A stretch of 25,514 nt of DNA from a virus: the IMG/VR virus record IMGVR_UViG_3300009149_000246, positions 1 through 25,514 of that record; one strand, 5' to 3'. A program made the translations under genes and the position numbers. Numbering within the stretch: the first letter of the stretch is position 1; each line of letters starts with the position of its first letter. The notes beneath the pieces were generated by a model that worked only from the letters and a program-made list of their open reading frames with translations, was not told the origin of the DNA and searched no databases. This document shows positions 1-25,514 of this stretch, in pieces.

Positions 1-1
1 C

Positions 2-1966
2 TACCGAGTAGTTTTAGATGATGGTGATGGTAAAGCAGCTTCTTATAGATATGAGCAACGTGAAGGTGATGTTGCAGCAATCTGGTATAAAATTTATGAT
101 ATGGATTGGGGAGAACAAAGTATTCTCTCAAATTTTTTATTATCAACACAAGATGTCTATGTTTATAAACATGGTGTTTCTGACAAGGATGAAAATGGTG
201 ATGTACTTCTCGGAACGCTTAGTGGACAACATATCTACGGTGGAGATCTCGCAAATCAAAACCTTACCCTACATGCAAATTCAGGGGATGGAGTCGGAGC
301 TAACACAGGCTTTATACAATTCGATGATCATACCCGGCCTATTGGCAATAATGTTTATGATGTTGGTACTGTCACTGATAAATTTAAAACAGGTCATTTT
401 GGCACGAGTATTCTTGTTGGTGACATTACTATTTCTAATGGTCAGATCATATCAAGTTCAGGTGCTTTAACATTTAATGATGAAAATTTAACTACTACTG
501 GAACTTTAACTGCAGGTATAACCACAGTTAATGGCCAGTTGGTAATGAAACAAATAACAACACCATCTAACCCCGCTGCTACATTCGACTCTTTATATTT
601 TAAAGCAGATGAAAAACTTTATAGATTAACAAGTGGTGGAGTAGAGAAATTAGTTGGATTAGAATTTTCCTCTACCAATGACAATAGATTAATTAGATCT
701 AATGGTACAGGTGGAGATGCGATTCAAGAATCTGGAGTAATAGTTTCAGATTTAGATGCTATTACCGGGGTGACAGCATTAACGATAGATAATTTATTTC
801 TTGATGGAAATACAATATCAAGTTTAAATACTAATGGAGATATTAATCTAACTCCAGATGGTACTGGAAAAGTTGTTACTCCAAATTTAAAAGTAACAGG
901 TTTAACAAATGATAAACTATTAGTTCCTAGAACAGATGGAACATTAACATCTACCGGGATTGATGTAGATGGATCTGACAACGTAACAGGAATGTTATCT
1001 TTAGATGTTGCCAATTTTCTATTAACTGGAAATACACTATCAAGTACAGACACAGATGGAAATATAACTATAACACCTGATGGTACAGGTGAAGTTGTTT
1101 TCTCAAAAATACTAAGACCATCATCAAACGGAACCTTAGATTTAGGTAAAACATCAAACAGAATACAAAATTTATTTTTATCAGGTTCTATAGGTGATGG
1201 AACAGATTCAATAGCAATAGCAACATTATTATCTTTCAGAGATGCTTTAGTAGGTATAGCCGATGGCCATACACTATTTTACGATAATGCTTCTGGAAAA
1301 TTTTTACCTTCCCTTCCAGATTTAGAAATAGATCATGGGGAGATCACAGGTTTATTAGATGATGATCATACGCAATATGTACTCCTTTCAGGTAGGAGTG
1401 GTGGTCAAGAGATTGTCGGAGACACGGATGCTTCTGGCAATCTCTTGTTATCAGCAACAAGTAATGCTGCTAAAGGCAGTATTTTCGCAAAGGATAACCT
1501 ATCTCCATTCGTTGATGCAAGTTATTCTGCAGGATGGAACGGAACAGATCTAGGAGATCCAACTCACTATTTTAGAAACTTATATACAAAGGGTGAGCTT
1601 TTTGGAGCTAGGCTAGAAAATATATTAGCATCGGCTTTACCCGCATTTTCAGCAAATAATAAAGGTAGAGTTTTTTACGCTACTGATACTGAGAAACTTT
1701 ATGTAGATACAGGATCTCAATTAAAAGTGGCAGGTGTAGGTAAACATTTAGAAGATTTAGCATTTAATGGTGTTGAACTAACAAAAACAATAAATGTTAG
1801 TGCAAATATTGGAGATGCTAGAAATGCTCTGATACAATTACTAGACAATACTAACAATTTTGAGAGAATATATTGTAAAATAGAAGCAACAAGTCAAACT
1901 GATGTAAGAGTAACTACCACAATACCGTTACCTGCAGGTAGTTATCGACTCATAGTTATGGAGTAA
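2..1966 (+). CDS. Phage tail fibre / appendage protein, 5' end cut by window edge
   Basis: The reading frame is open from position 2, so the first in-frame ATG (101) is probably not the start and the true N-terminus lies outside the window. The visible 654 residues are rich in Gly, Asn, Asp, Thr and Ser, with modules typical of phage fibres. There is an HxQY-LLSGRSGGQ-type motif near 1360-1410 followed by an Asp-Ala-Ser-Gly-Asn turn. Two copies of an L-x-GNT-x-SS ... PDGTG module occur at 788-1099, and 'K-x-DEKLY-x-L' strand motifs are shared with the next gene. The C-terminal 80 residues look like a small beta domain. The likely role is a trimeric virion fibre that contacts the host surface. 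The gene stops 2 nt before the next start, so the two are co-translated. The family is inferred from motifs and composition; the receptor is unknown. Confidence 0.75.
   Translation, partial: YRVVLDDGDGKAASYRYEQREGDVAAIWYKIYDMDWGEQSILSNFLLSTQDVYVYKHGVSDKDENGDVLLGTLSGQHIYGGDLANQNLTLHANSGDGVGANTGFIQFDDHTRPIGNNVYDVGTVTDKFKTGHFGTSILVGDITISNGQIISSSGALTFNDENLTTTGTLTAGITTVNGQLVMKQITTPSNPAATFDSLYFKADEKLYRLTSGGVEKLVGLEFSSTNDNRLIRSNGTGGDAIQESGVIVSDLDAITGVTALTIDNLFLDGNTISSLNTNGDINLTPDGTGKVVTPNLKVTGLTNDKLLVPRTDGTLTSTGIDVDGSDNVTGMLSLDVANFLLTGNTLSSTDTDGNITITPDGTGEVVFSKILRPSSNGTLDLGKTSNRIQNLFLSGSIGDGTDSIAIATLLSFRDALVGIADGHTLFYDNASGKFLPSLPDLEIDHGEITGLLDDDHTQYVLLSGRSGGQEIVGDTDASGNLLLSATSNAAKGSIFAKDNLSPFVDASYSAGWNGTDLGDPTHYFRNLYTKGELFGARLENILASALPAFSANNKGRVFYATDTEKLYVDTGSQLKVAGVGKHLEDLAFNGVELTKTINVSANIGDARNALIQLLDNTNNFERIYCKIEATSQTDVRVTTTIPLPAGSYRLIVME
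788..1099 (+). repeat. Two diverged repeat modules in the fibre gene
   Basis: Two copies of a ~30-residue unit (788-877 and 1010-1099) share the pattern L-x-x-GNT-(I/L)-SS-x-x-T-(N/D)-G-(D/N)-I-x-(L/I)-TPDGTG-(K/E)-VV. The copies begin 222 bp apart, and the stretch before each is also similar (V-D-x-D-x-(I/V)-TG-x-x-(A/S)-L). The full repeat is therefore about 74 residues. Such modules usually build the fibre shaft. Confidence 0.7.
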
Positions 1967-1968
1967 AA

Positions 1969-4200
1969 ATGAAAGTTTTTGGACTATTAGAAAGAGCACA
2001 AGCTGAACCATTGGCATCAGATCCCACAGGTGCAGGTTTAATTGTAGGTAGATTTTTCTACCACAGTGGAACAGATAGTTTTAAATACTATGGTGTATCC
2101 ATGCGAACAGTTGTTAATACTGATCAAGCACAGACTTTAGATAATAAGTCACTAACAACAGTTTTATTCCCACATCAAACAACACCTTCTAACCCCGCTT
2201 CTGGAAATATCAAAGTCTATTCAAAGAATGATGATAAATTATATGTACTAGATGAAAACGGAAATGAAACATCAGTTGGTTCAGGTGGTGGTGGATCACT
2301 AAACTTTTATGAAAAAGGTGATGCTGATCTAGCTCAAGTTGGAGAATTTTCTCAAGGTTCAGATCCTACTTTTGGTAATGGTGGAGCTTCAAGTTCTACA
2401 TTTGCTTTAACAGCTACTAACCCCGCTCGTGGAACCAAGTCTTTTGAGATGACATTAAATGGTACACCTTCAGCTTCTAATAATGATTATGTAAGATCTG
2501 AATTAATACCTATTCCACTTGGATATAGAGGTCAATTTTTAACTATCAATTTAAGATACAATTACGATGGACTTAATGATGATATTAAATTTGTTGTAAG
2601 AGATGAAACAAACTCAGTTATTATTACAGATACAACAGAAAAATTTGAAAAATATACTAACTCAAATGGTTATAAAGAATTTAGCTTTGTAGTTTATGTT
2701 GCTCAATCTTGTGCGAACCTTTCAGTAGGGCCTCAAGTTGTGAGTCACGCTGCAGGTAGTGAAGTTTTAAAATGGGATGATGTTTTAGTCACTCCAGATT
2801 TAACTAGAAGTACAAGTTTAAAAGATGATACAGAAATTATTTCTTATACAGGATTTTTAACTAGAAGTGGAAATGATGTACAACTTGCATCTGTTTTAGA
2901 AGATACAAGTAAAGGTTTACTTGCTCACACATCAAATGCAGGTGGAACTAGAATACAGATATTAAAAGATTGTTATATAGCGGTAACATATAACTGTTCT
3001 ACCCTTAGTGGAATAAATCTTTCTCAAATAGTTTTATTTAATGATACACCTGTAATTGAGCAATACTCAATAGATCAAGAAGGGTCAGGTGGAATAGCTT
3101 GGGCAAAATCAACATCTTTAAATGCCTACGTTAAAGCGGGATATGAACTAAGAGTACGGACATCAGTTAATGTTGATAACAATGGTGCAACAAATTTCAC
3201 CTGTATAGCTACTCCACTTTCATCAACAGAACACATACTAACCCCTGCAAAGACAGGAGACATTGGAGCAATTCAAGCTTTTGGTACAACAACAACTCCA
3301 GATGGTTTTCTATATTGTGATGGTAGTTCACTTTTAAGATCTCAGTATGCAGATCTTTTTGCTTCACTTGGAACAGCTTACGGTACTGCAGATGGAGATC
3401 ATTTTAATTTACCAGATTTCAGAGGTAACTTCATGAGAGGTTACGATGGGGTCGGTGCAGATCCAGATGCAGCTTCAAGGGTAGCATCTAAACCGGGTGG
3501 TAATACTGGAGACAATATTGGTTCTTATCAAGGACATGCTTTTCAAACGCATATACATAACTATGATGCTAGATTAGGGGCAATTCAAGGTGACTTAGTA
3601 GCAGGTTCACCTCACTTATCTAGGTTCATTACAACACAAGGAACAACGGCCCCGGTTACAGGAACAACATCTTCTGAAACAAGACCTGTCAACGTGTCAG
3701 TTCGTTACTATGTTAGATATAGATCATCAGTTACAACTGCAGCACTTCCAAAAGTTTATGCAGGTATAGTTGGAGATGTTAGACACTCTCTCTTAACTGA
3801 AGCACAATTCCAAACCTATGCAGGTGAGGGATGGGTTCTCATGGATGGTAGATCTGTAGTTGGATCTGCTTATGAAGCAATAACTGGAAATACAAATATT
3901 CCAGATGCTCGTGGTAGAGCACTAAGAATGAAAGATAATGCCGCAGGTGTAAACCCCGATGGTGATTTAGCTTTAGGTACATTACAAAGTGATGCGTTTC
4001 AAGGACATTGGCATCAGGTAGGAGTTAATAGTTCAGGAGCACTAGGTAATGCAGGTGTATCTGGAAAAGACGGTGGAGTACAGGGAAGTCCAAATAGAGC
4101 ACAAGCTCCTGTAACAGATGGGGTGAATGGTACACCTAGAATTTCATCAGAGACAAGAATGGCAAATGCCACAGTTAACTTTTTTGTAAAAATTAACTAA
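1969..4200 (+). CDS. Large tail fibre with two tail-collar domains
   Basis: This 743-residue protein starts at an ATG preceded by TATGGAG and 2 nt after the upstream stop. Residues ~60-110 repeat the 'TTPSNPA ... DDKLY-x-L' module of the previous gene and end in a Gly/Ser linker. Residues ~115-285 look like a beta-sandwich (jelly-roll or CBM-like). Residues ~290-425 resemble a C1q-like beta domain. Two phage tail-collar modules follow. The first, from ~427, has GD-IGA-x-x-x-FG, a GFLYCDG segment, NLPDFRG and HxH. The second, from ~594, has GWVLMDG, NIPDARGRAL and HWH. Each ends in a SSETR-x-x-N-x-(S/T)-V-x-(Y/F)-(Y/F)-V motif. Collar domains cap receptor-binding fibres. The duplicated collar suggests two tip heads or an internal pseudo-repeat. 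Confidence 0.85.
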   Translation: MKVFGLLERAQAEPLASDPTGAGLIVGRFFYHSGTDSFKYYGVSMRTVVNTDQAQTLDNKSLTTVLFPHQTTPSNPASGNIKVYSKNDDKLYVLDENGNETSVGSGGGGSLNFYEKGDADLAQVGEFSQGSDPTFGNGGASSSTFALTATNPARGTKSFEMTLNGTPSASNNDYVRSELIPIPLGYRGQFLTINLRYNYDGLNDDIKFVVRDETNSVIITDTTEKFEKYTNSNGYKEFSFVVYVAQSCANLSVGPQVVSHAAGSEVLKWDDVLVTPDLTRSTSLKDDTEIISYTGFLTRSGNDVQLASVLEDTSKGLLAHTSNAGGTRIQILKDCYIAVTYNCSTLSGINLSQIVLFNDTPVIEQYSIDQEGSGGIAWAKSTSLNAYVKAGYELRVRTSVNVDNNGATNFTCIATPLSSTEHILTPAKTGDIGAIQAFGTTTTPDGFLYCDGSSLLRSQYADLFASLGTAYGTADGDHFNLPDFRGNFMRGYDGVGADPDAASRVASKPGGNTGDNIGSYQGHAFQTHIHNYDARLGAIQGDLVAGSPHLSRFITTQGTTAPVTGTTSSETRPVNVSVRYYVRYRSSVTTAALPKVYAGIVGDVRHSLLTEAQFQTYAGEGWVLMDGRSVVGSAYEAITGNTNIPDARGRALRMKDNAAGVNPDGDLALGTLQSDAFQGHWHQVGVNSSGALGNAGVSGKDGGVQGSPNRAQAPVTDGVNGTPRISSETRMANATVNFFVKIN

Positions 4201-4210
4201 GGAAGTTTAA

Positions 4211-4402
4211 GTGAAAAAATTTGGAGCTGAGTTAATTATTCTAGGTATACTGTTCCCGATTTTATTGGCAGTATCAGGATATGTTGCTTCAAAAACAGTT
4301 GACAATGAAAATGAAATATCAGCACTTAAAACTGCAGACAAGTACCAAGTAGAAATGCTTAAAGAAATGAAACTAGATATTAAAACTCTTCTAAAGAGAT
4401 AA
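4211..4402 (+). CDS. Small single-pass membrane protein (holin-like candidate)
   Basis: This 63-residue ORF starts at GTG 4211 with AAGGAAG about 7 nt upstream. Residues ~6-27 form one hydrophobic segment (LIILGILFPILLAVSGYVA) after a short basic N-terminus. The rest is a charged helix able to form a coiled coil. Size, topology and position between fibre genes and a lipoprotein gene fit a holin or another small membrane protein of a lysis cassette. No family-specific motif is visible, so the function is a guess from topology and context. Confidence 0.6.
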   Translation: MKKFGAELIILGILFPILLAVSGYVASKTVDNENEISALKTADKYQVEMLKEMKLDIKTLLKR

Positions 4403-4430
4403 CACCACAAAACCTGATAGGGAGAATAAA

Positions 4431-4943
4431 ATGAATGATGAAACACAAGTAGAAGAAACAGTAGAAGAAAATGAAGAAGCTCTAAATGAGATTATGCAAC
4501 AAAACCCTTTAAGTGAAGAAGTTGAAGAACTTGAAGCTGAAGAAGCTACAGAAAAAGTTGTTTTAGAAGAAGCTGAACTACCTGAAGTAGAAGCTCCAAA
4601 AGTTAAAGTAGGAGATCACAAAGGTATTAAAGAAACTAAAGAAGTTTTAAAACTTGGTTTCGCATTAGCTAAAGCTTACAAAGCGGCTAACTTAGATGGT
4701 AAAGTAAACCTTTTAGATGCTCCACTTCTAGTAAGAGCTTTTCCTGATTTAACAGCGGCCTTTGAAGGTATCACTGAAGTACCAGATGAAGTTAAAGATT
4801 TAAGTAAAGAAGAAGTAGCAGAGCTTTTAAATTTTGCCGCTGTACATTTATCTGAATCTTCTGATGATGAAAAACTTGTTGCAAAGGTTGAAAAATCTTT
4901 AGCAGTTGGATTAGCTATAGTGAGTCTATTAAAGGAATTTTAA
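4431..4943 (+). CDS. Acidic phage protein of unknown function
   Basis: This 170-residue protein is preceded by a GGGAG ribosome binding site. The first ~55 residues are extremely acidic (runs of Glu, no Lys before residue ~42) and probably disordered. Residues ~62-170 form a predicted helical domain with a DGKVNLLDAPLL segment and a GI-x-x-(V/I)-P-x-E-(V/L)-x-DL pattern. I associate that layout with small accessory proteins near tail and lysis genes in other phages, but I cannot name a family. The stop overlaps the next start (TAATG), so it is translationally coupled to the following gene. Confidence 0.6.
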   Translation: MNDETQVEETVEENEEALNEIMQQNPLSEEVEELEAEEATEKVVLEEAELPEVEAPKVKVGDHKGIKETKEVLKLGFALAKAYKAANLDGKVNLLDAPLLVRAFPDLTAAFEGITEVPDEVKDLSKEEVAELLNFAAVHLSESSDDEKLVAKVEKSLAVGLAIVSLLKEF

Positions 4944-5191
4944 TGCTTCAGTTAAAAGCTATAATAGAGGCAATAACAGGTATTGCCTCTATCTTTAAAA
5001 TTATAAAAGATCTCTATGAAGCACACATGGAGAAAAAAATAGAGAAGCACTATGAAAGAAAAAATTCTGTAATAACAAAAGTGTCTACAGAAATAGAAGT
5101 TGAAACAACAAAACCAAAGGAAGAACAAAGCGATGAAAAGCTTAAAGATTTACATCGTAGGCTTACTAACCTTAATAGCAGGGTGCAGTAG
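4943..5191 (+). CDS. Small helical protein, overlapped by a lipoprotein gene (possible inner spanin partner)
   Basis: This 82-residue ORF starts at the ATG of a TAATG overlap. An N-terminal amphipathic or weakly hydrophobic helix (residues ~4-27) is followed by a highly charged, Lys/Glu-rich, probably coiled-coil tail. The final 59 nt are overlapped in another frame by a lipoprotein gene. Overlapping spanin pairs have this layout: an inner-membrane helical protein followed by a nested lipoprotein. However, the N-terminal helix contains Glu and Lys and is a poor transmembrane anchor. I therefore treat the spanin reading as possible only. Confidence 0.55.
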   Translation: MLQLKAIIEAITGIASIFKIIKDLYEAHMEKKIEKHYERKNSVITKVSTEIEVETTKPKEEQSDEKLKDLHRRLTNLNSRVQ

Positions 5192-5414
5192 CTTTAAACT
5201 AATAAACCCTATAGAACCTGTAGGGCCTAAATGTATCCAACTTTCAAAGGATATGTTCTGCATAGATTCTGGAACAAAAAAAGAATACCTTGTACCACTA
5301 GATAAAACTCGTGGTTATCATTGTACAACTAATTTACATACAGCACAGTTGAAGCTTTTTTTATCTAATATTTTAGAGGATAATGAAAAATTAAAACAAA
5401 GAAGTAGGAGATAG
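5133..5414 (+). CDS. Small lipoprotein (outer-spanin-like candidate)
   Basis: The start is ATG 5133, about 9 nt after AAGGAAG; this gives a classic lipoprotein signal peptide directly after Met. It reads MKSLKIYIVGLLTLIAGCSS, with lipobox L-I-A-G-C at Cys18, processed by signal peptidase II. The mature part is about 75 residues with further Cys residues and no clear domain. It ends in a charged helix and stops 1 nt before the next gene. The start lies inside the previous gene in a different frame. Lipobox, size, overlap and position suggest an outer spanin, though a superinfection-exclusion or other envelope lipoprotein is equally possible. Confidence 0.65.
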   Translation: MKSLKIYIVGLLTLIAGCSSFKLINPIEPVGPKCIQLSKDMFCIDSGTKKEYLVPLDKTRGYHCTTNLHTAQLKLFLSNILEDNEKLKQRSRR

Positions 5415-5415
5415 A

Positions 5416-5793
5416 ATGGGAACTTTAACACATGGATACTATAAACCGGATGATGGTGATAAAGGTAAAGTGCTTTTTGGACATTTAGAAGATAATATCC
5501 AACTTGTGAATGATCACAATCACGATGGGATTACAGGTTTAAAAGTTCTATCAACAAACATACAAAACCTTAGTCAAGTTGCTTTAAGTGCTAACTGGGT
5601 ATCACAACCAAATGGTCTTTACAGACAACTCATATCTACAACAGGTGGTATTGATTATACTAATCATGCTGTGTTTTTTAGAGATGATGCTAACCAAGAT
5701 CCATTAGAACTGACAACAGAGTTTGTTGCTTTAGCACAATTCTATGTCTACATAAATGACAATACTAAAGATGTAAAGATACTCTATACATAA
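5416..5793 (+). CDS. Small fibre-like structural protein
   Basis: This 125-residue protein has a perfect AGGAG 8 nt before ATG. The N-terminus carries a THGYYKPDDGDKG segment and an NDHNHDG motif. Short His/Asp-Gly motifs like these are common at the N-termini of small phage fibre or baseplate decoration proteins. The C-terminal half is predicted to be all beta and resembles the tip domains of neighbouring fibre genes. It sits between a lipoprotein and a large structural gene. No family is recognised with certainty. Confidence 0.55.
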   Translation: MGTLTHGYYKPDDGDKGKVLFGHLEDNIQLVNDHNHDGITGLKVLSTNIQNLSQVALSANWVSQPNGLYRQLISTTGGIDYTNHAVFFRDDANQDPLELTTEFVALAQFYVYINDNTKDVKILYT

Positions 5794-5802
5794 GGGAAAT
5801 AA

Positions 5803-8058
5803 ATGTTAAACACAAGGCCTTTATATTTAGACGATTTTTCAGGTGGTATCACAGATAATTTCATTGATGCTCCTTTGAACAAATATCAATTTGCTCAGAA
5901 CTTCTTAATAACAGAAAACAAAAAACTAGAAACAATTGCAGGTAGTAGAGTTTACGATTTAGATAAACCACAAATACCTTTAGGAAATCAAAGAGTAGGT
6001 TCTCTTATAGATTTCAATGATGATTTATTAGTCCAAGCTAACACAAAAGTTTACTATGAAAATGGAGCTGTGTGGGGAGAACTTACAGGGCCGGGTGGTT
6101 CTGCTTTTTCTATTGGTGATGCCAATTCAGGAATATCCACAGCATATTGGAATAATCATTTACTTTTAACCAATGATGAATACTCCCCTACAATTAAAAT
6201 TTATAGAGATGACTTAGGTATTCTACAGTTAAGATCTGCAGGTTTACCAAGATTAGATTCAGATCCATCATTCGTTGGCACAGGTGGAGCTAATGATTAC
6301 CTATATTCTTTTATATATTATTATGAGTATAAAGTTGGCACAGTAACTTTTGCTGATTTTGGGCCTACAAGAGATGGACAAGTTACAAGTGTAAATGCTC
6401 CTGATGTAAATAGTATTGGAATATCCCTTATACCTGTTTTAACAAATTCAGGTGGTAAACAATGGGATCTAGCAAATGTTAAAGTAAAAATATATAGATC
6501 TATTGCAGGTGGAACTGTTTTATATGAAGCGGGTGAAGTCACAAATGGAACAACAGTTTTCACTGATACATTATCTGATTCACTATTATCTACAAACGCA
6601 GTAATTTATACAGAAGGTGGAACTCAGCAAAATGCAGAACCACCATTGGCACAAGCATTACACGTTAATAATGGTGTTGCTTGGTATGGAAATGTTAAAA
6701 TTGGTTCTGAAATAATTGCTAACAGAGTGTACCAATCACAACCATCTGACATTGACTCAGTACCAGAAACAAATTTTATAAACTTAGAAGATGACATTAT
6801 GGCTATATCTTCTTACTTAGATAGAACCATTGTTTTATGTAAGAGATCTGTCTATCGTTTAGATGGAACTTTTAATGAGCAAGGTGGTGGTGGAGTAGAG
6901 TACCAGAAAATATCTGATAAACTTGGATGCGTTAGTTTATCTTCAGTTGTCAGGGTTCAGGATGGTGTTGTCTTTGCTTCAGAAGAAGGTTTTTGTTTCA
7001 CTGATGGATTTAAAACATTTAAAATTTCAGATGACTTCAATAAAAGATATAAAACTTATGTTCAAACAGATGTGCAAAGAAAGCGTATATACGGTACTTA
7101 TGACAGAATAGATGGAAGAGTTTGGTGGAGTGTACAGTCAGGTGAAGGACTATCTGATGACATAGACAACTCATATATCTTAGATACTCGATATGGCTTC
7201 ACATCAAATTCTTCTTTTACAACTGCAGGTAATCAGCCTGAATATTCTCCAACATCTTTAATTTTTAAAGATGGAGATATGATAAGGGGAGACAAGCGTG
7301 GATTTCTTTTTCAACATGATGATGAATTATTATCACACCCTAAAATTGATTTATCTAAAAATCCTTCAACTTGGTTTAAAGCACCAATACAATATGATTA
7401 TGTATCAAGTGCTACTGGTTTTGGTGATACTAGAAATAGAAAATTTGTTCCTAGAGTTATTTTAAGTTGTGACAATGTTTCAAACATATCAACACAGCTT
7501 GTATCTATATCTGACATTGGTTCAAGAGAAAGAGATATACCTATAATTAGATGGAGAGGTAATTTTGTTTGGGGAGATCCTCTATTTGTTTGGGGAGCTG
7601 ATGAATTTACATGGGGTACACCGGGATTTATAGAACAAATGAGAAGATTTAATTCTGATGATCTAAGGTGTACTTATAAACAAATACAAGCAAAAAATGC
7701 TTTTGTTACTATAACTGAATCAGATGGTTTTGTTAATGGTGTAGTTGATGCTTTTGCAAAGACAGCTACAATTGTTAACCCCGGAACAAACGTATGGCCT
7801 ACAGATATGGGTGGATACACTATTCACTTTAGTAGTAACTATGACATCGGATATGAGATATTAGCTCAGAGTGATGATACTTTAACATTAAAAGATGATG
7901 GAGCAACATTAGTTGATGGTTCTCAGGGATGGGAAATTAGAGGATATGCTAAAGATGAAATTATTAAAATCTTAGGTATAACTATGTTGTACGCATCACT
8001 TGGACAACAGCAAACAGATTTTGATCCTAGTTCTCTAGGTGGTAATAGTGGCAATTAA
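5803..8058 (+). CDS. Large virion structural protein (tail stabilisation / tubular type)
   Basis: This 751-residue protein follows a strong AAGGGA site. The N-terminus has the LDDFSGGI-x-(D/N) pattern followed by Gln-Asn and a Leu-Glu-Thr-Ile-Ala-Gly-Ser-Arg segment. In many short-tailed phages this pattern opens a large beta-propeller-like tail or DNA-stabilisation protein. The rest is beta-rich, with repeated aromatic-Gly motifs, including a triple 'FVWGDP / FVWGAD / FTWGTP' run at about residues 587-607. The function is inferred from N-terminal pattern, size and neighbourhood: a tail-associated virion component. The end overlaps the next gene by 11 nt. Confidence 0.6.
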   Translation: MLNTRPLYLDDFSGGITDNFIDAPLNKYQFAQNFLITENKKLETIAGSRVYDLDKPQIPLGNQRVGSLIDFNDDLLVQANTKVYYENGAVWGELTGPGGSAFSIGDANSGISTAYWNNHLLLTNDEYSPTIKIYRDDLGILQLRSAGLPRLDSDPSFVGTGGANDYLYSFIYYYEYKVGTVTFADFGPTRDGQVTSVNAPDVNSIGISLIPVLTNSGGKQWDLANVKVKIYRSIAGGTVLYEAGEVTNGTTVFTDTLSDSLLSTNAVIYTEGGTQQNAEPPLAQALHVNNGVAWYGNVKIGSEIIANRVYQSQPSDIDSVPETNFINLEDDIMAISSYLDRTIVLCKRSVYRLDGTFNEQGGGGVEYQKISDKLGCVSLSSVVRVQDGVVFASEEGFCFTDGFKTFKISDDFNKRYKTYVQTDVQRKRIYGTYDRIDGRVWWSVQSGEGLSDDIDNSYILDTRYGFTSNSSFTTAGNQPEYSPTSLIFKDGDMIRGDKRGFLFQHDDELLSHPKIDLSKNPSTWFKAPIQYDYVSSATGFGDTRNRKFVPRVILSCDNVSNISTQLVSISDIGSRERDIPIIRWRGNFVWGDPLFVWGADEFTWGTPGFIEQMRRFNSDDLRCTYKQIQAKNAFVTITESDGFVNGVVDAFAKTATIVNPGTNVWPTDMGGYTIHFSSNYDIGYEILAQSDDTLTLKDDGATLVDGSQGWEIRGYAKDEIIKILGITMLYASLGQQQTDFDPSSLGGNSGN

Positions 8059-8506: not shown

Positions 8507-8508
8507 TT

Positions 8509-12215: not shown

Positions 12216-12226
12216 GAGCGTTTAAA

Positions 12227-13874: not shown

Positions 13875-13883
13875 GGAGTAATT

Positions 13884-15077: not shown

Positions 15078-15079
15078 AT

Positions 15080-16966: not shown

Positions 16967-16970
16967 AAAA

Positions 16971-17576: not shown

Positions 17577-17590
17577 ACTCTTTTACTCCT

Positions 17591-17620
17591 TTGATATAGG
17601 AAATAATTTCCCTGTATAAT
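17591..17620 (+). promoter_or_regulatory. Near-consensus sigma70-type promoter enclosing an inverted repeat
   Basis: TTGATA (17591-17596) and TATAAT (17615-17620) are 18 bp apart. Between them GGAAAT-A-ATTTCC (17599-17611) is an inverted repeat with 6-bp arms, a natural operator position. The ATG of the + strand nuclease gene begins 8 nt after the -10 box, so the transcript would be leaderless. The Shine-Dalgarno sequence of the divergent - strand gene overlaps the -35 side. Confidence 0.7.
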
Positions 17621-17627
17621 ATTATTA

Positions 17628-18319: not shown

Positions 18320-18762
18320 TAGTCTCTATCTGTGACAAATTCTAAACTAACTGCATAGACATCAAAAGCTGAGTTATCATTTTTCTTTGCAATCTTTTTA
18401 CACTCTTTAACGTATTCTGTGTAGTGTTCATTCTTCCCTTCATCTTGTAGATCTTCAACTAAAACACACTCACATCTCACACACCAAATTTGTATACCTT
18501 CATGGCCTGAAAGGAATGTGTAGAATAGAGATTCAAGATCTTGCATAGCTCCCATAAGGTGCATTTCATTTGTAGTACACATCATTGCTGCTAGTGCATT
18601 TTTTGAATCATTAATAAATAAAACTTCAGTAGAAATATCAGCTACATTTTCTTCACCTAGTTGTAGCCCTACTCCCATTACATCTGGTTCATTAATTTCT
18701 TCTTCACCTAAAATTTTTGCTTCTTCTTCTTCGATGTCTAATTGTTGTTCTTGAATTTCCAT
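18319..18762 (-). CDS. Acidic phage protein of unknown function
   Basis: This 147-residue protein starts at ATG 18762 with AAAGGAG about 8 nt upstream. The first ~35 residues are Glu-rich. The centre has several Met and Cys residues, including a WCVRCECVLVED segment with a C-x-x-C-x-C arrangement (residues ~93-98) that could bind metal. The C-terminus is a mixed alpha/beta stretch ending in EFVTDRD. It lies between PolA and VRR-NUC and is coupled to both. I do not recognise a family. Confidence 0.55.
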   Translation of the reverse strand: MEIQEQQLDIEEEEAKILGEEEINEPDVMGVGLQLGEENVADISTEVLFINDSKNALAAMMCTTNEMHLMGAMQDLESLFYTFLSGHEGIQIWCVRCECVLVEDLQDEGKNEHYTEYVKECKKIAKKNDNSAFDVYAVSLEFVTDRD

Positions 18763-18763
18763 A

Positions 18764-19201
18764 TTACGCTCCTTTATAAGCTAGTTTTTCACCCCATGAT
18801 TTCTTAGAGAAATCAACACCTACTGTATATGGTAGGTGTTTAGTTGGGGCAACATTTTCCATAATTTCTTTTAACAACGGCACTAAGTAAAATTCATCGT
18901 TGTGAATGTCAAAAAGTAATTCGTCATGTACCTGCAGTATCATCTTAGACTTTGTACCCTGTAGTAAAGCAAAACATTTGATCATAGCTCTTTTAATCCA
19001 ATCTGCAGTTTCACCTTGGATAAGGTAGTTAGGGCCTTTGTATGCAAAATTCTTAATTTTAAAGGTGTACTTCCTACCAAAATCATTAAACAAAGCTCCC
19101 TGTTCTGCAGCTTCAATTGTTCTTTTAACAAATGCTTCAACTGCAGGTAGTTTAGAAAAGTAGGTTTGTTTTAGGTCTTTTGCTTTTGTTAATATCTCCA
19201 C
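18764..19201 (-). CDS. Family A DNA polymerase, C-terminal palm part (after in-frame TGA)
   Basis: The frame continues from the N-terminal part after a single TGA (19259-19261), with 19 further codons before the only in-frame start-like codon, GTG at 19201. The 145 residues contain the rest of a PolA domain: YFSKLPAVEAF, GRKYTF, LIQGETADWIKRAM, and motif C VHDEL with catalytic Asp93. No Shine-Dalgarno is visible before the GTG. Separate initiation is thus weakly supported, and stop readthrough or an error/mutation in the TGA codon is more likely. Joined to the upstream part it gives a protein of about 640 residues, a usual size for phage PolA. Confidence 0.85.
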   Translation of the reverse strand: MEILTKAKDLKQTYFSKLPAVEAFVKRTIEAAEQGALFNDFGRKYTFKIKNFAYKGPNYLIQGETADWIKRAMIKCFALLQGTKSKMILQVHDELLFDIHNDEFYLVPLLKEIMENVAPTKHLPYTVGVDFSKKSWGEKLAYKGA

Positions 19202-19258
19202 ACCATGTTCAACATCATTTATACTTAACTCTAATTCGTTTGCTATTCTGATATTGTT

Positions 19259-20686
19259 TCATTGAAAATCTCTAAAGAAATGGTACTTCTGAATTAATTT
19301 TAAAATGTGTTCAGGTAAATGAGATCCATATAAACCCATTGCCATAACTGCAATCCCGCCACCGTATAAAAGGAGAAAATTCATCATTTTAGCTTTATCC
19401 CGGTCATTAATCTCCATTTGATTATCAGTGGCAGTATGGACATCTAAACCTGTTAGCACCTGTTCAATAACTCCCATCTCTTCAGCTTTGTTAAGCATCA
19501 TACGATATTCAAATTGATCAAAGTCTAGTGCAAATAATGTGTGATCTTTGGAGCGGGGTAGAAAAGCTTTTCTTACGGGAAATCTGGAATTGGCTTCATT
19601 TCTCTTTGGAACCTGCTGTAAGTTAGGGTCACTGGAACTAAAGCGGCCTGTTCTTGTTGCTGCTTGATTAAGACTTGCATGGATAAAGCAAGATTCATCT
19701 GAGTGGTAAATATATGAAGCAAAGAATGATGCTTTTTTATTGCAGCTTCTAAAGTCTCTAATAGCTTTAGCGATTGGGGTGTTAAGGTTTTCGAGAACAT
19801 CTTTTGTAAACGATGGATTACCCTTTTCTGTAACTGGGTATTTATATCCAAGCGATGTAAAAGATTCAGCATGTCTTTTTCCAGAATCGACAAATTCAAA
19901 ACCAGAAATTTCTCTGTATCTTTCTTTGACTTTAATGGCTTCATTTGTGTAGTGATCATAAGCTTCCTCACAATACTTTAAGTCTACCTTAATTCCCTCC
20001 CGCTTCATAGTAGCTAGAACTGGAACTAGATCTCTTTCAGTTTGAACAGAATCTTCCCATCCAAAAGGGTTAGGTATAGACATTAATTGTTGAAAGTAGT
20101 GGATACCTAAATCATAGGTTATTCTTGCATCTTGATTGGCATATTTAAACATTATTTCAAATGGAACCAAGTGAAAAAAGTATTCTGTTTCAGGTGTCTT
20201 TTTTCCACGTACTTGAAATTTTCTGAAAAGTTTATGTTGTACACAATAAGCTTTTACAATATCAGATTTAGCTTCACCAATATCCTTTGCTAATGTTGCC
20301 ATTCCAATTGCAAAGCGGTCATTATTTACTAATCTTGCTAATGATTCATTTGGATAGATCCTAATTTTTGAAAGATCTGCATTTTCCATTACCATCATTA
20401 ATATATCAAACACAGGATTTTGCATAAAAATACGGCCTGTGAAGTTTTCTAAAATTTTAGGTATAAAGTTTCTGTTAAGTGGGAGTTCTATATTCCTAAG
20501 ATGATCAGGGTGAGAATTAAAATTAAAATAATATTCTTCATCTTTTGTCCCTATAGTTATACAAAATAATCTATGTCCTTTATGATAATAAAGTCCTTCA
20601 GTTTCAGTGTCAAATGAGATGTAGGGAGAATCTACTATGGCCTCAACAGCTTTGGTAAATGTGCTCGGAGTGACCATAATAGACAT
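19259..20686 (-). CDS. Family A DNA polymerase, N-terminal exonuclease and fingers part
   Basis: This 475-residue ORF is replicative PolA, 3'-5' exonuclease plus most of the polymerase domain. Exo I is DTET (Asp26, Glu28), Exo II N-x-x-x-D (Asn90, Asp94) and Exo III Y-x-x-x-D (Tyr182, Asp186). The PolA signature T-R-T-G-R-F-S-S ... PNLQQVP is at ~344-360. Motif A is ALDFDQFEYR (Asp388). Motif B, the O-helix, is R429 ... K433-x-x-NF-x-x-x-YG442. The ORF ends at TGA 33 residues after motif B, before motif C. There is no 5'-3' exonuclease domain, as usual for phages. It starts 4 nt after the stop of a small upstream gene. Confidence 0.9.
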   Translation of the reverse strand: MSIMVTPSTFTKAVEAIVDSPYISFDTETEGLYYHKGHRLFCITIGTKDEEYYFNFNSHPDHLRNIELPLNRNFIPKILENFTGRIFMQNPVFDILMMVMENADLSKIRIYPNESLARLVNNDRFAIGMATLAKDIGEAKSDIVKAYCVQHKLFRKFQVRGKKTPETEYFFHLVPFEIMFKYANQDARITYDLGIHYFQQLMSIPNPFGWEDSVQTERDLVPVLATMKREGIKVDLKYCEEAYDHYTNEAIKVKERYREISGFEFVDSGKRHAESFTSLGYKYPVTEKGNPSFTKDVLENLNTPIAKAIRDFRSCNKKASFFASYIYHSDESCFIHASLNQAATRTGRFSSSDPNLQQVPKRNEANSRFPVRKAFLPRSKDHTLFALDFDQFEYRMMLNKAEEMGVIEQVLTGLDVHTATDNQMEINDRDKAKMMNFLLLYGGGIAVMAMGLYGSHLPEHILKLIQKYHFFRDFQ

Positions 20687-20690
20687 TAAA

Positions 20691-20903
20691 CTATTTCCAA
20701 GTAGAGATTAATTTAGTTTTCTTTGCAGATACTAAAACTTGGTTAATAAAAGCGGCTTTAGATAGATTCATCTTTTTAGCTTCTTTCATAACCCAGTCTC
20801 CAGTTTTCTGATCTGTGTAACTATAAAGTTTAACAGGTACAGGAGTGGCGGTCTTTTTGGAAATAACTTTCTTTGTTACTGCTTTTCTTGGTAGTGTTCT
20901 CAT
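20691..20903 (-). CDS. Small basic protein, possible ribbon-helix-helix DNA-binding protein
   Basis: The start is ATG 20903 with AAAGGAG about 10 nt upstream; an earlier in-frame start at 20936 has no such site. The 70-residue protein has a basic N-terminal tail of about 25 residues (Arg/Lys/Thr). Then VKLYSYTD resembles a beta strand, followed by two helices (GDWVMKEAKKMNL and SKAAFINQVLVSA). The strand-helix-helix layout with S-x-x-x-F-I in the second helix fits Arc/MetJ-type repressors. It lies between DnaQ-like and PolA genes. The fold is inferred from pattern only. Confidence 0.6.
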   Translation of the reverse strand: MRTLPRKAVTKKVISKKTATPVPVKLYSYTDQKTGDWVMKEAKKMNLSKAAFINQVLVSAKKTKLISTWK

Positions 20904-20914
20904 TTTTGTCTCCT

Positions 20915-21664
20915 TTAGACTTCTTCTACAGGACATGGAAATTCCATATTATTAATTAATATTAATTTTGATTCTAAAACCCATGTCTTTGAATCGGGAT
21001 GCCATTTAAATCCAAGGTTTTTTACACCGTCTTTAATGGTGTTGAAATCTTCCATTGCTTGTTTGAAATTTCCGTTACGCTCTTTAGGGTATTGGAATTT
21101 TGCAATCAACTTTACAATTGGAGATTCAGCAATGGCCTGAACTTCTTCCCAAGGGTACATTGCCATAACCTTTAACATGGAGAGAACATCGGCTACAGCT
21201 CTATGTGGAAATGGGTTAGCAAAACCATGAAACGCTTGAAGGTAAGTTAGGTTTCTTGATTTACAATTATTTGGAAATGGTATATCTGTCATGGTGTCAA
21301 TCAAAGTTTTACCGGGTGTTCTTAACCCTAGAGCTTTGAAGCGGGATGCCATGATTGGTATGTCAAAATTTCTACCATTGTGAGCTACTAAATAATTAGC
21401 TTCAAATGCCATGTCAGAAAACTTATTTAACGCATCTAATTCATTAACACCATGATTGTTACACATTTCAGTTGTGATCCCGGTGTACTCTACAGCTTCA
21501 GGAGAAACTTCTTTTCCTTCAGGTTGTACTAATGTGTTGTAAATTTCTAATGGCATGTTGGTATCTGTATCCCAAAGAACACAACCAATTTCTGTTATCC
21601 AATTTTCTTCTTTAGGTAGATTAAAAGCTCCACCTGTCTCTAAGTCAAATCCTAATACTTTCAT
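20915..21664 (-). CDS. DnaQ-like DEDDh 3'-5' exonuclease
   Basis: This 249-residue protein has all motifs of the DEDDh exonuclease superfamily. FDLETGG gives Asp7 and Glu9, HNGRNFDIP gives Asp101, and HRAVADV gives His154 and Asp159. The conserved SPEAVEYTGIT segment typical of DnaQ/PolC-epsilon proteins is at ~54-64. Residues ~175-249 form an extra C-terminal domain with KWHPDSKTWVLE. It probably removes nucleotides from 3' ends in replication, repair or RNA turnover. The PolA here also seems to have its own exonuclease site, so this is an additional activity. Its ATG overlaps the upstream TGA. Confidence 0.85.
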   Translation of the reverse strand: MKVLGFDLETGGAFNLPKEENWITEIGCVLWDTDTNMPLEIYNTLVQPEGKEVSPEAVEYTGITTEMCNNHGVNELDALNKFSDMAFEANYLVAHNGRNFDIPIMASRFKALGLRTPGKTLIDTMTDIPFPNNCKSRNLTYLQAFHGFANPFPHRAVADVLSMLKVMAMYPWEEVQAIAESPIVKLIAKFQYPKERNGNFKQAMEDFNTIKDGVKNLGFKWHPDSKTWVLESKLILINNMEFPCPVEEV

Positions 21665-21894
21665 TTTGATTTCCTTTTATGTTTATTGAATCTTTTACGA
21701 ATATCTTTAAAATTACTTAGTGCTATAACTTTGTTCGATTTTTTAACGGTTATACTGTATGCGAAATCTAAACGATAGATACAGTCTTGAATTATTCCTT
21801 CAAGGTTTTTAATGGTTTCTTCTTGGGTATATTCTTTGGTAGTGGCATAGGCTTTTGCTTTTCCCACTTTATCATTTCCCATAATAAAATTCAT
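21661..21894 (-). CDS. Small basic protein, unknown
   Basis: I prefer ATG 21894, with AAAAGGAG about 6 nt upstream, giving 77 residues. A TTG at 21975 would extend the frame over a strong hairpin and has no ribosome binding site. The protein has an NLEGIIQDCIYRLD helix, a short beta segment and a very basic C-terminus (RKRFNKHKRKSK), suggesting nucleic-acid contact. It ends by ATGA overlap with the exonuclease gene. No family is recognised. Confidence 0.5.
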   Translation of the reverse strand: MNFIMGNDKVGKAKAYATTKEYTQEETIKNLEGIIQDCIYRLDFAYSITVKKSNKVIALSNFKDIRKRFNKHKRKSK

Positions 21895-21914
21895 ACCTAC
21901 TCCTTTTAAATAGG

Positions 21915-21956
21915 CCCACTCCTTCGATGAATAGTAATTCACGTACCGGGAGTGGG
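21915..21956 (-). promoter_or_regulatory. Long hairpin in an untranslated leader
   Basis: CCCACTCC (21915-21922) pairs with GGAGTGGG (21949-21956), and inside the loop TGAAT (21928-21932) pairs with ATTCA (21937-21941) around a 4-nt loop. It lies in a ~116-nt gap, unusually long for this block, and ends about 9 nt before the ribosome binding site of the small basic gene. No U-tract follows, so it is not a standard terminator. A role in translation control, RNA processing or mRNA stability is possible. Confidence 0.55.
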
Positions 21957-22010
21957 GGATCTTATAGAATCTCAAACTTTAACTTCACTATAACTCAGCA
22001 AAAGTTTTAC

Positions 22011-22787
22011 CTAAAAATTTACGTTGTTTAACTTTTCTTCAGCATCAGCTTTTGTGACTGTTTTTGGTGCTGATTTTTGTTCAGTTGGAGCATCTTGCTG
22101 TGCCATGAATTTAGCTTTAGTGGTATTGAACTCATTGAAGTATTGGATACAAACTTCAGTTTCTTTTGCAGTTGCATCTCTACCTATAGAGAGATCCGCT
22201 CCCCACCAAGTATCCTCACCATTTGTTCTTTGAGATATTGAAGCTCTAAAAACTCTTTGATGTGAAGAGATACCTTTAGCACCTAATCTTTGAATAACAG
22301 AATTTAACTTTTTAGTTTCTTTAACTGCAGTTGATCTAAATGCAAATTCATAAGGCATTTCAAGGCCGTCTTTGATTTCTTCTGGTAAAAGAACAACATA
22401 AGAAAAATGAAATGTTCTAGTTAATAATTTACCATCAACTTCTTCTTCCCAAGGTAATTCATTGGCATTTACACCGGGAAATTTAGCTACAAAATCTTTT
22501 GTGTTCTTGTCTTTAACAACCCAATATTTCATAACTCCCACAATCATAAAATCTAATGGCTTTGCTTCTTCATCTTTGTAACCCTTATGAGCAAGCTCAA
22601 TTTCTGGTTCTTGAAGATTAACAATTGAACCTTGTCTACACTTCTCTTCTTTAACGAAATCAGATCCCGGTTGCATAAGTGTTAATCTACCTTGTTGAAC
22701 ATCATCATTAGATAGATCACCTGCAATACCACCCTGTACTTCAGTTGATACTGCATTACCTTTTGTTTTTGCTACTTGTTTTGTCAT
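22011..22787 (-). CDS. Putative ssDNA-binding-type phage protein
   Basis: This 258-residue protein has a strong AAGGAGC site. The N-terminus contains DLSNDDVQQGRLTLMQPGS, then beta-rich segments (KPLDFMIVGVMKYWVV, RTFHFSYVVLLPEEI, PYEFAFRSTAV) consistent with an OB-like or SSB-like domain. A polar linker (Gln/Lys/Pro/Thr-rich) and a short acidic tip ending in Phe follow (AEEKLNNVNF). Disordered linker plus acidic aromatic tail is typical of SSB proteins. The position, between helicase and PolA genes, also fits. No diagnostic residue proves ssDNA binding, so this is inference. Confidence 0.45.
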   Translation of the reverse strand: MTKQVAKTKGNAVSTEVQGGIAGDLSNDDVQQGRLTLMQPGSDFVKEEKCRQGSIVNLQEPEIELAHKGYKDEEAKPLDFMIVGVMKYWVVKDKNTKDFVAKFPGVNANELPWEEEVDGKLLTRTFHFSYVVLLPEEIKDGLEMPYEFAFRSTAVKETKKLNSVIQRLGAKGISSHQRVFRASISQRTNGEDTWWGADLSIGRDATAKETEVCIQYFNEFNTTKAKFMAQQDAPTEQKSAPKTVTKADAEEKLNNVNF

Positions 22788-22797
22788 TTTCAGCTCC

Positions 22798-23247
22798 TTA
22801 CTTTTTCTTAGTTAGTGAATATTTTGTCCAAGGGTCTTTTCTTAAAACTCCCGGTGGAATAAAATTAAAATCATTTCTTGCTTCAGCAATTTCTACTTCA
22901 GACTTAACATAAGAATTAAGAGAAGCTGCGTTAACAGTAATCATTGATGTGTACATTTCTTTTTCTTTTAAATAAGCAAAAAATTCTTCTTTAGATTCAT
23001 CGTCTTTTGGAAGGATATAACCTTCTTCAAGTTTTGCTGTGAATGTACCAACTTTAGAAATGTATTTTTTCATCTCTAACTTTTCAAGCATCATGCCTAC
23101 TTCATGGCATTTTTCTTCATAATTACACCAAACTTTAGCGTTTAAATCTTTGTTGTATTTGTGCGTTGCTTTTAAATCAAAAGCTTCAGCGATTGTTGAC
23201 TCCAGTTTGGATACTGTGATGTCATCTGCAATTGGTTTATCTAACAT
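22798..23247 (-). CDS. Phage replication-block protein, unknown
   Basis: The start is ATG 23247, about 7 nt after AAGGAA, giving 149 residues. A further ATG at 23271 lacks a ribosome binding site. The protein is mostly helical, with a EFFAYLKEKEM segment, then a TVNAASLNSYVKSEVE helix and a basic end (KYSLTKKK). The same 'FF-x-(W/Y)-L-x-x ... LNS-(F/Y)' layout occurs, as I remember it, in small proteins next to phage SSB or recombination genes. I cannot assign a function. It overlaps the previous gene by 11 nt and sits 10 nt before the SSB-like gene. Confidence 0.5.
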   Translation of the reverse strand: MLDKPIADDITVSKLESTIAEAFDLKATHKYNKDLNAKVWCNYEEKCHEVGMMLEKLEMKKYISKVGTFTAKLEEGYILPKDDESKEEFFAYLKEKEMYTSMITVNAASLNSYVKSEVEIAEARNDFNFIPPGVLRKDPWTKYSLTKKK

Positions 23248-23470
23248 GTGAGTTCCTTGAATAAGTTTCAAACATTGATTTCAATGCTCTTATATGATCT
23301 TCATCTAAATATTTAGGTGGTACTACCAATGTTGTTCCATTGAATTTATTTTGTAAGCAAAAACAATATCTAATAATTTCACTAGAAATTTCTTTTGCTT
23401 GGGCTTCATTTTCTTGTTTCTTTAATAGTTCTAGGTATTCATCATAATCAATTGTAATTCGTTTAGTCAT
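23237..23470 (-). CDS. Small protein, unknown, first gene after an internal promoter
   Basis: The start is ATG 23470, preceded by AAAGGAG with 6 nt spacing. The 77-residue protein begins MTKRITIDYDEYLELLKKQE: a strand followed by a helix, as in short phage regulators or chaperone-like proteins. It has a CFCLQNKFNG segment and ends in a helix (EDHIRALKSMFETY). There is no recognised family. It lies directly downstream of the palindrome-containing promoter and could be the regulator or first product of that transcript. Confidence 0.5.
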   Translation of the reverse strand: MTKRITIDYDEYLELLKKQENEAQAKEISSEIIRYCFCLQNKFNGTTLVVPPKYLDEDHIRALKSMFETYSRNSHVR

Positions 23471-23489
23471 TGGATCTCCTTTGCGAACA

Positions 23490-23521
23490 TGTATATTTGC
23501 GTACCGTACGGTAAATGTCAA
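23490..23521 (-). promoter_or_regulatory. Candidate promoter containing a perfect 12-bp palindrome
   Basis: On the - strand TTGACA (23521-23516) is a perfect -35 box, overlapping the helicase stop codon. TATACA (23495-23490) is a fair -10 box with a 20-bp spacer; AATATA with an 18-bp spacer is the alternative. Inside the spacer TACCGTACGGTA (23502-23513) is a perfect palindrome, an ideal repressor or activator site. The next gene starts about 20 nt downstream with its own ribosome binding site. Confidence 0.55.
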
Positions 23522-24966
23522 AAGCTTTTTCTAACTAAGGCTAATATTTCTTCTGAAGTGACAATTTTTCTCGATAAACTCGAATCAATTTCTTCATCAA
23601 TAGTCTCTCTACACTGGATAACAATTTCAGTGATTTTATCATGTAAGTCGATACTTCCACCCCGGTAGTTACGTGCCGCAGCCTGAATCTTTCGCTCCAA
23701 ACTGAAATCACGACTATACCATATAGAATGACTAGCCGACTTAATATTAACACCAATCCCCAAACTAGCGGGATGGCCAATACAAACGGAGATAGAATCA
23801 TCCTCATTAAAAGACTTAATGTTAGCAAACTTTTCCTTAGTATTGATGAGGCCGTGTCCTTCAACATATCCAAGTTTGAGTGATTCACAGACTTCTCGGA
23901 TCTGCTTGTAGTTTTCGTGGAATACGGCCCAGATGATGACTTTTTGCTTTGCTTCAACGCAAATGTCGAATAAGAGTTCTTTAAGTGCTTTTTCCCTTTC
24001 ATTTTTTAACCTTACAATTTTTCCATCTTCAGTCTTAACAAAACCAGATGATATTTGGGCCAATCTTAAAAGTTTAACTAAGGCAATATCCGCAGTTACA
24101 GCTTCACCATCTATGACCGTTATTAGATGTTTTTTCATTTCATTGTATGCTTTTCTCTGTGAAGGGGTCATGTCTACTTTAACAATCTTCTCTACCTTCT
24201 CAGGGAGATCTATACATTCTTCTTTTAACGCTCTCATTGATTTAGCATAGATCTTTTCATTCATTTCATCATAAGCACCTGTTCTCACCTTCCAATCTGG
24301 AATGTGGATATTATTAACTTTGGGTCTACCGTAGTTAGCATCATAGAAATATTTGTTCTGGAAATTATAAAAGTTTCTTCCAAATGATTCACCCTTATCT
24401 AAGATCCTAAATTGAGCGTAGGCATCAAATGGTGAGTTAGTTATAAAAGAACCTGTGAGCAAATATCTGAACGTAGTTTTGTCAGATATTGTTGAAATTC
24501 GTTTTGTTCTTTTTGCATTGTGAGTTTTACATCTGTGAGATTCATCAAGAACCAATACTTCGGGGCAAAATTCCTTTCTAATAAAATCATAGAACTCTGT
24601 AGATGCTCCAATGGCTTCATAATTTGTGATAAGTATGACGTTACCATCGTATTTATCGAGTGCGATACTCGCTTGCTTAATTCTTCTTTTAACAGGCCCA
24701 AATAAAGGGATAACTCTTTCTCTAGGAGTTTTTGAGAATTTGTCAATCTCTTGCTGCCAATTTTCCAAAGTGATAATTGGGGATATAATAAGTGTACGTA
24801 AAACCCGCCCCGCTTTAAAATATCTGTAACGGAGTAGAGTAATGAGTGTAAGTGTTTTTCCTGTTCCAACATCGAATAAATATGCGTACTCAGGTAAGTC
24901 TTTTGCTGCATGAAAACCATTCTCCTGATGCTTCCAGTGTTGAACTATGTCATTTGGAAAATCCAT
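23518..24966 (-). CDS. SNF2-type superfamily 2 helicase / translocase
   Basis: This 482-residue protein is a compact SF2 ATPase. Walker A is FDVGTGKT (Lys37, Thr38). Motif Ia lies around LIISPIITLENW, with Trp70. Walker B is DESH (141-144) and motif III is LTGS (170-173). Motif V/VI is SLGIGVNI ... QAAARNYRGG (428-437, arginine finger Arg432). Phage SNF2-type helicases of this length sit with PolA and VRR-NUC and probably remodel replication forks or branched DNA. The gene starts by TAATG overlap with the upstream gene, with AAGGGTGA as ribosome binding site, and ends in TGA within the next promoter. Confidence 0.85.
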   Translation of the reverse strand: MDFPNDIVQHWKHQENGFHAAKDLPEYAYLFDVGTGKTLTLITLLRYRYFKAGRVLRTLIISPIITLENWQQEIDKFSKTPRERVIPLFGPVKRRIKQASIALDKYDGNVILITNYEAIGASTEFYDFIRKEFCPEVLVLDESHRCKTHNAKRTKRISTISDKTTFRYLLTGSFITNSPFDAYAQFRILDKGESFGRNFYNFQNKYFYDANYGRPKVNNIHIPDWKVRTGAYDEMNEKIYAKSMRALKEECIDLPEKVEKIVKVDMTPSQRKAYNEMKKHLITVIDGEAVTADIALVKLLRLAQISSGFVKTEDGKIVRLKNEREKALKELLFDICVEAKQKVIIWAVFHENYKQIREVCESLKLGYVEGHGLINTKEKFANIKSFNEDDSISVCIGHPASLGIGVNIKSASHSIWYSRDFSLERKIQAAARNYRGGSIDLHDKITEIVIQCRETIDEEIDSSLSRKIVTSEEILALVRKSF

Positions 24967-25205
24967 TATTTCACCCTTGAGTAGTTAAAGTCTCTTCGAC
25001 TTAAAAAAGCTACCGATAGATCCACTTTTACTGAATCTATTGTTTTATCTTTGTTAAATCTTTTATCCCAGTAATGAAATGCTCTATAGTTAAAATCGGG
25101 TATCTCTATTACTATTTTTTTTATTTTATTTGCACATTCTATAATATCAAATGTTGCTCCATAAGCAGCTTCAATATAATTGTGTACGTAGCTTACATTA
25201 GACAT
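24966..25205 (-). CDS. Small protein of unknown function
   Basis: This 79-residue ORF is joined to both neighbours by TAATG overlaps, which supports that it is real. It is rich in Tyr, Asn, Asp and Lys and has no signal peptide or membrane segment. A central IVIEIPDFNYRAFHYWDKRFNK segment and a C-terminal VDLSVAFLSRRDF strand are visible. No family is recognised. Coupling to the peptidase and helicase genes only shows that it belongs to the early transcript. Confidence 0.5.
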   Translation of the reverse strand: MSNVSYVHNYIEAAYGATFDIIECANKIKKIVIEIPDFNYRAFHYWDKRFNKDKTIDSVKVDLSVAFLSRRDFNYSRVK

Positions 25206-25514
25206 TACAAACTCGCAGGTTCATTATGACAGTGATAAAAAGTTGGATACTCTAAAACAACCTCAAAAGCTTGTGTGCAATATTCTTTAAGTGCTTCTTT
25301 ATCGTGCATAGATAGAAATTCAAAGTCTATATCAAGTGCTAAACCATATAGGTGTTTACTTGTGTGAGATCCACCTACTTCTTTACTCATATTATGAACT
25401 TGACAGCGATACCCACTATTAACATTTAAAGGTTTACCAAAATTAGCTCTTACAGCGTTCCATGAGTTTATTGTTTTGGTGTCAAAATATGTTGACATAC
25501 AATAGGAATTTGTA
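25205..25514 (-). CDS. Peptidase M15-type endolysin (L,D/D,D-carboxypeptidase fold), 5' end cut by window edge
   Basis: The frame remains open to the end of the window. The ATG at 25498 has no ribosome binding site, so the true start may lie outside. The visible ~100 residues hold the M15_3 core: R-x-x-FGKPLNVNSGYRC, HN-x-x-x-x-VGGS, then SKHLYGLALDIDF (zinc ligands His and Asp), and a C-terminal FYHCHNE with the final His. Enzymes of this family cut the peptide part of peptidoglycan. It is probably the lysis enzyme, though it lies in the replication block, far from the holin-like gene. Confidence 0.8.
   Translation of the reverse strand, partial: TNSYCMSTYFDTKTINSWNAVRANFGKPLNVNSGYRCQVHNMSKEVGGSHTSKHLYGLALDIDFEFLSMHDKEALKEYCTQAFEVVLEYPTFYHCHNEPASL

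Follow-up and report, generated by a model that had tools for sequence, protein, structure and literature searches.

The viral contig IMGVR_UViG_3300009149_000246, analysed here over its full length of 25,514 bp (the window; G+C 35%), covers part of the genome of an uncultivated, podovirus-like phage of apparently lytic habit; about 12 to 14 short DNA motifs have been eliminated from it. The pressure on these motifs reaches beyond CCWGG and GGWCC, the two words singled out in a preliminary description of the DNA. Very probably, selection purged these roughly 12 to 14 words because genomes without them evade restriction by the host or a related defence directed at specific DNA words. Gene layout and remaining sites of individual words are collected in Table 1.

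Table 1. Gene blocks, selected genes, and eliminated words in the window.
Feature	Position	Strand	Description	Expected count
Virion gene block	2..16966	+	collar/tail-fibre, internal virion, and structural proteins	
Replication gene block	17085..25513	mostly -	exception is the + strand nuclease gene 17628-18044	
Helicase	23518-24966		replication block	
DNA polymerase A (family A)	18764-20686	-		
Exonuclease	20915-21664		replication block	
PD-(D/E)XK endonuclease family protein, small	17628-18044	+	PF11645, 65 bits	
CCAGC (GCTGG)	10371..10375	-	sole site	about 29
CAGCAG	19613..19618	-	sole site	about 14-15
GAGCC	8484..8488	-	sole site	about 11
ACGGG	19575..19579	+	sole site	about 12
TCTAGA	10482..10487	+	sole site	about 10
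CACCAG/CTGGTG			none on either strand	25
AAGAGG			none on either strand	12
GGAAAG			none on either strand	11
GGAAAC			none on either strand	9
GAATTC			none on either strand	8
CATATG, ATGCAT			none on either strand of the whole window	

A nucleotide comparison of the window with 50,697 phage records gave no match. A 47-kb syntenic relative (G001) has 22 genes in common with it at 29-67% amino-acid identity, and the terminase of this relative itself has no relative in the phage collection. The PD-(D/E)XK gene, which lies on the strand opposite to its neighbours, has a counterpart in G001. One in-frame TGA, at about 19259-19261, splits the DNA polymerase A gene; the homologue in G001 has Trp at this position. 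Since TGA also ends other genes of the window, an isolated nonsense mutation or a mistake in assembly seems more likely than an altered genetic code. In an accessory region of G001 (35961-38764; L009:15961-18764), a 626-aa cysteine-rich protein adjoins a class II glutamine amidotransferase-like protein, both named by eye. No tRNA genes were found in the window. Two scans of genome contigs, made with the terminase and structural proteins, returned no match, and they yielded neither a host nor a restriction endonuclease or methylase with the avoided specificities.

An exact search of the window returns zero for each of CCAGG, CCTGG, GGACC, and GGTCC, confirming the complete absence of CCWGG and GGWCC reported in the preliminary description. 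CCSGG occurs 29 times (CCCGG 15, CCGGG 14) and GGSCC 19 times (GGGCC 13, GGCCC 6), where about 30 and 16 had been estimated. The codon choice described for these sites is also borne out by the counts: Pro-Gly is written with CCG (10) or CCC (7) and in 0 of 17 cases with CCT or CCA, while these two make up 216 of the 271 Pro codons in the window (80%). Analogously, Gly-Pro is written with GGG (9) or GGC (3) and in 0 of 12 cases with GGT or GGA, which make up 603 of the 679 Gly codons (89%).

In 2,000 synonymous-codon shuffles, which hold proteins and codon usage fixed, the expectation is 18.6 ± 2.8 for CCWGG (range 10-27) and 13.6 ± 2.0 for GGWCC (8-21). A second version of the null, which additionally retains codon-junction dinucleotides but not longer context, gives 16.5 ± 2.8 (6-28) and 10.2 ± 2.2 (3-18), respectively. 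Under either null, a count of zero for CCWGG or GGWCC is reached in none of the 2,000 shuffles, and the observed counts of CCSGG and GGSCC are matched by no shuffle, all shuffles being lower. Chance and base composition are ruled out as the cause by the codon shuffles together with the Markov expectation. The two outcomes named beforehand as contrary to the preliminary description, several exact sites or counts within the codon-shuffled range, were both looked for, and neither occurred. The pattern is one that a Dcm/EcoRII-like specificity would leave for the first word (CCWGG 0 against approximately 16.6 expected, CCSGG spared with 29 against about 10.5) and an AvaII-like specificity for the second (GGWCC 0 against 10.1, GGSCC spared with 19 against about 8.3).

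CCWGG is a classic 5-methylcytosine site, and CCWGG and GGWCC might have been removed without selection by mutational decay, in which Dcm-like cytosine methylation is followed by deamination. The deamination products show no marked excess, however (CTWGG/CCWAG 75 against 66.6 and GGWTC/GAWCC 98 against 86.9 expected); the excess lies instead in CCSGG (29 against 10.4) and GGSCC (19 against 7.9). Moreover, where sites are conserved between relatives, the difference lies mostly in the silent central base and not in C, and GAATTC, CATATG, and GGAAAC are missing as well. We find mutational decay barely credible.

The full extent of the loss emerges when every 4- to 6-base word is ranked against the same codon-shuffle null. 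A conditional analysis, whose shuffles exclude every word identified before and which defines elimination as 10% or less of expectation, leaves 19 separate words eliminated in the window. False positives amount to at most about 0.05 words per word length, as estimated separately from shuffled genomes with no words forbidden. Five of the 19 words, which are ribosome-binding-site-like or lie largely in one codon frame, were set aside, leaving a core of 14. These core words have 5 sites in the window against 186 expected, with 3 against 130 in the virion block (+ strand) and 2 against 49.5 in the replication block. Most eliminated words are asymmetric (non-palindromic). The depleted words GCAGGA, GGAGGA, GGAGGT, TAAGGA, and GATGAG resemble ribosome-binding sites; as a group, these five are not clearly depleted in two relatives (6 against 9 expected in L037, 23 against 26 in L018), and part of the 19 words may have a translational cause. 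CTGCAG is over-represented in the window (24 against 7 expected), as is CTGAAG (39 against 20), an excess that may stem from the use of codons like GCA for Ala in place of GCT contexts that are forbidden.

Among the CCAG contexts, CCAGG and CCAGC are both gone, such that CCAGS occurs once against about 46 expected. CCAGA and CCAGT are normal; within these, those preceded by CA are gone (0 against 14.5). A single word covering CCWGG, CCAGC, and CACCAG was considered and rejected, as the CCAG contexts resolve into two blocks, CCAGS and CACCAG.

The loss of words is independent of codon frame and strand. Off the main codon frame, palindromic core words occur once against 19.3 expected and asymmetric core words twice against 27.8, while the rarer orientation of the asymmetric core words is found 0 times against 31.6. 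These counts speak against a translational codon-context (codon-pair) bias, in which host ribosomes would disfavour certain codon neighbours, e.g., NCT-GG, and the words would be lost incidentally. Such a bias would fit the concentration of many words at a single codon junction (Pro-Gly, Gly-Pro, Ala-Gly) and the few depleted words that are ribosome-binding-site-like and largely frame-specific (GGAGGT, GGAGGA). It would leave unexplained why CCAGA and CCAGT are normal whereas CCAGC and CCAGG are gone, and why several forbidden words are freely used by a relative with mostly 67-76% identical proteins. As the main cause, codon-pair bias is largely refuted, and we consider it quite improbable.

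Related phages differ in the words they avoid, and they do so through silent changes. In a 4.5-kb terminase contig of a relative (L037), which was held out from word discovery, the core set occurs 0 times against 24.5 expected, the minimum among 150 shuffles being 14. L018, the closest relative that allows a gene-by-gene comparison (67-76% identity in most common genes), retains, over its full contig, CCWGG (24 observed/16.6 expected), CCAGC (56/50.8), and CACCAG (33/22.9), and is without most other core words (CAGCAG 1/20, GGAAAS 1/13.6, GAGCC 0/9.6). At amino-acid-conserved sites, CCWGG of L018 is replaced by CCSGG in the window in 4 of 6 cases, GCTGG by GCAGG in 8 of 8, and CTGGTG by CAGGTG in 6 of 7.

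Further relatives display other combinations. G001 lacks all CCNGG, GAGCC, and GAATTC and retains GGWCC, while L020 avoids CCWGG, CCAGC, ACGGG, and GGWCC, the latter with 0 observed against 12.4 expected while GGSCC stands at 23 against 10.5. L035 avoids CCWGG, GATC, GAGCC, and CTGAAG. In G002, GATC is the only eliminated word found, and in L021 no word is eliminated by the same criterion and none of the set is strongly avoided. GATC is almost gone in the IMG/VR relatives G002 (1 against 67) and G003 (1 against 52). The avoided words thus turn over on a background of conserved proteins, a pattern to be expected of pressure from defences that differ between hosts.

The relatives also bear on the identity of the CCWGG specificity. 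The window, L037, and L020 all lack both CCWGG and CCAGC, and one asymmetric specificity, CCAGS, could account for the CCWGG loss in the window. Since CCAGS covers CCWGG equally well, the Dcm/EcoRII-like assignment of the preliminary description is not uniquely implied, although its basis, the absence of CCWGG with CCSGG spared, holds. A true CCWGG system is also plausible, because G001 and L035 avoid CCWGG without avoiding CCAGC.

Under the mechanism that we favour, in which the phage evades restriction by its hosts or a related defence, incoming phage DNA that lacks modification would be cut at every occurrence of a word, and a silent codon change that removes the word would allow the genome to survive. 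The corresponding swaps would be CCW-GG to CCS-GG, GGW-CC to GGS-CC, GCT-GG to GCA-GG, and NCT-GGT-G to NCA-GGT-G. Phage lineages that met different sets of defences would come to lack different words. We infer that nucleases of the host bacteria are the agents, several of them with asymmetric recognition sites. The long selection on DNA words proposed at the outset is well supported by the silent swaps, the loss in all frames and both orientations, and the differing sets of the relatives. Restriction likewise stands as the best mechanism, but the number of two restriction or modification-dependent systems gives way to a larger one, with 12 to 14 words missing, most of them asymmetric.

A different source of the pressure might be the phage itself, if a word-specific nuclease or system of its own destroyed host or rival DNA and its own genome therefore had to lack the words. 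The PD-(D/E)XK endonuclease family protein (Table 1) is a candidate for this role, and a large part of the phage genome lies outside the window. More than 10 unrelated words are missing, however, which is too many for one or two nucleases, and the PD-(D/E)XK homologue occurs in G001, whose avoided set differs. Additionally, no DNA methylase of the two main families (PF01555, PF00145) is present in the window or in seven related records, although these are fragments in which absence is not proof. We therefore regard a nuclease of the phage's own as very improbable.

As to the kind of host defence, CCWGG, GGWCC, GAATTC, CATATG, ATGCAT, and TCTAGA resemble Type II sites; the asymmetric words point to systems of Type IIS, IIG, or III or to BREX-like ones. 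The loss of both orientations of the asymmetric words argues against a classical Type III requirement: on the coding strand, CAGCAG occurs once against 10.0 expected and CTGCTG 0 times against 4.6, which is not the one-orientation escape pattern, a pattern that is sufficient but not required for Type III avoidance. The asymmetric words might instead reflect a word-specific defence other than classical restriction, e.g., BREX or phase-variable modification-linked systems, a reading that overlaps with our favoured explanation. Systems of single-strand adenine methylation typically use asymmetric 5-6 base words with an adenine, and words of this form are among those missing. Further, the words have gone in both orientations, although a phage can evade Type III restriction by losing just one, as in T7 with EcoP15 (PMC3874151). 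The palindromic words, in turn, fit Type II, and nothing points directly to any particular system. On balance, we hold a non-classical defence behind the asymmetric words to be unlikely. The broader proposal that a dozen or more word-specific defences exert pressure at once, mostly on asymmetric words and by single-site action, with a set that turns over between close relatives, is advanced tentatively, as possible yet somewhat doubtful.

If this many-defence reading is true, it contradicts the view that phages spare non-orthodox sites, and the genome would be a readable record of the defence repertoire of its hosts. The avoided words offer a direct readout of the defences met by this uncultivated phage, and a route to host prediction through bacteria whose methylomes carry the same word set. 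With words that switch on and off between relatives at conserved protein sites, these phages form a natural experiment in the rewriting of genomes by restriction pressure. The group also bears on the question of whether systems with asymmetric sites (Type IIS, IIG, III, BREX-like) cause words to be eliminated; according to the main survey, they do so rarely or never.

That survey, which is large (Rusinov et al, 2018; PMC6286503), describes the elimination of sites without gene loss, strong in lytic (non-temperate dsDNA) phages and with few exceptions limited to the sites of orthodox Type II systems (7.1% of cases, compared with <0.5% for other types). The window agrees with it in that host restriction words are eliminated and differs in that these are mostly asymmetric and a dozen at once. 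Site avoidance itself is thus already known, while its breadth here, the preponderance of asymmetric words, and the clear-cut change of set from relative to relative extend that picture. The rare elimination of non-orthodox sites in the survey (PMC6286503) stands against a restriction reading of the asymmetric words. The window is nevertheless filed under the known phenomenon, since T7 and Lactococcus phage sk1 also lose asymmetric words in the same analysis. Elimination of asymmetric sites may be commoner than the survey suggests, as seen for CTGAAG and CAGCTC in T7.

Three phages served as positive controls. The method picks out GATC and CCWGG in T7 and GATC in Staphylococcus phage K, in agreement with known biology, and ACGT and GTAC in a Helicobacter phage; these recoveries support it. 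When sequences of equal or almost equal length are compared, the window has 19 separate eliminated words, an Ochrobactrum phage 13, T7 11, sk1 9, Staphylococcus phage K 3, and a Pelagibacter phage 0. Helicobacter phage 1961P (5 words) and phage K (3) resemble the window in having eliminated words, but in smaller number. T7, sampled as the first 24.9 kb of called genes (L038), is similar to the window in lacking several words beyond GATC and CCWGG, including the asymmetric CTGAAG (1 observed/24.9 expected) and CAGCTC (1/16.5), but its 11 words contrast with the 19 of the window at equal length. Moreover, T7 keeps 36 EcoP15 sites (CAGCAG), all in one orientation, and thereby escapes Type III restriction (PMC3874151), whereas a single CAGCAG is left in the window. 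The Staphylococcus podovirus phiAGO1.3 (PMC6346686), a small lytic phage, is comparable to the window: it has no GGNCC and two GATC, and its few or absent restriction sites have been linked to a wide strain range. In contrast to the window, the host and enzymes of phiAGO1.3 are known, and these are mostly Type I, with two Type II sites (PMC6346686).
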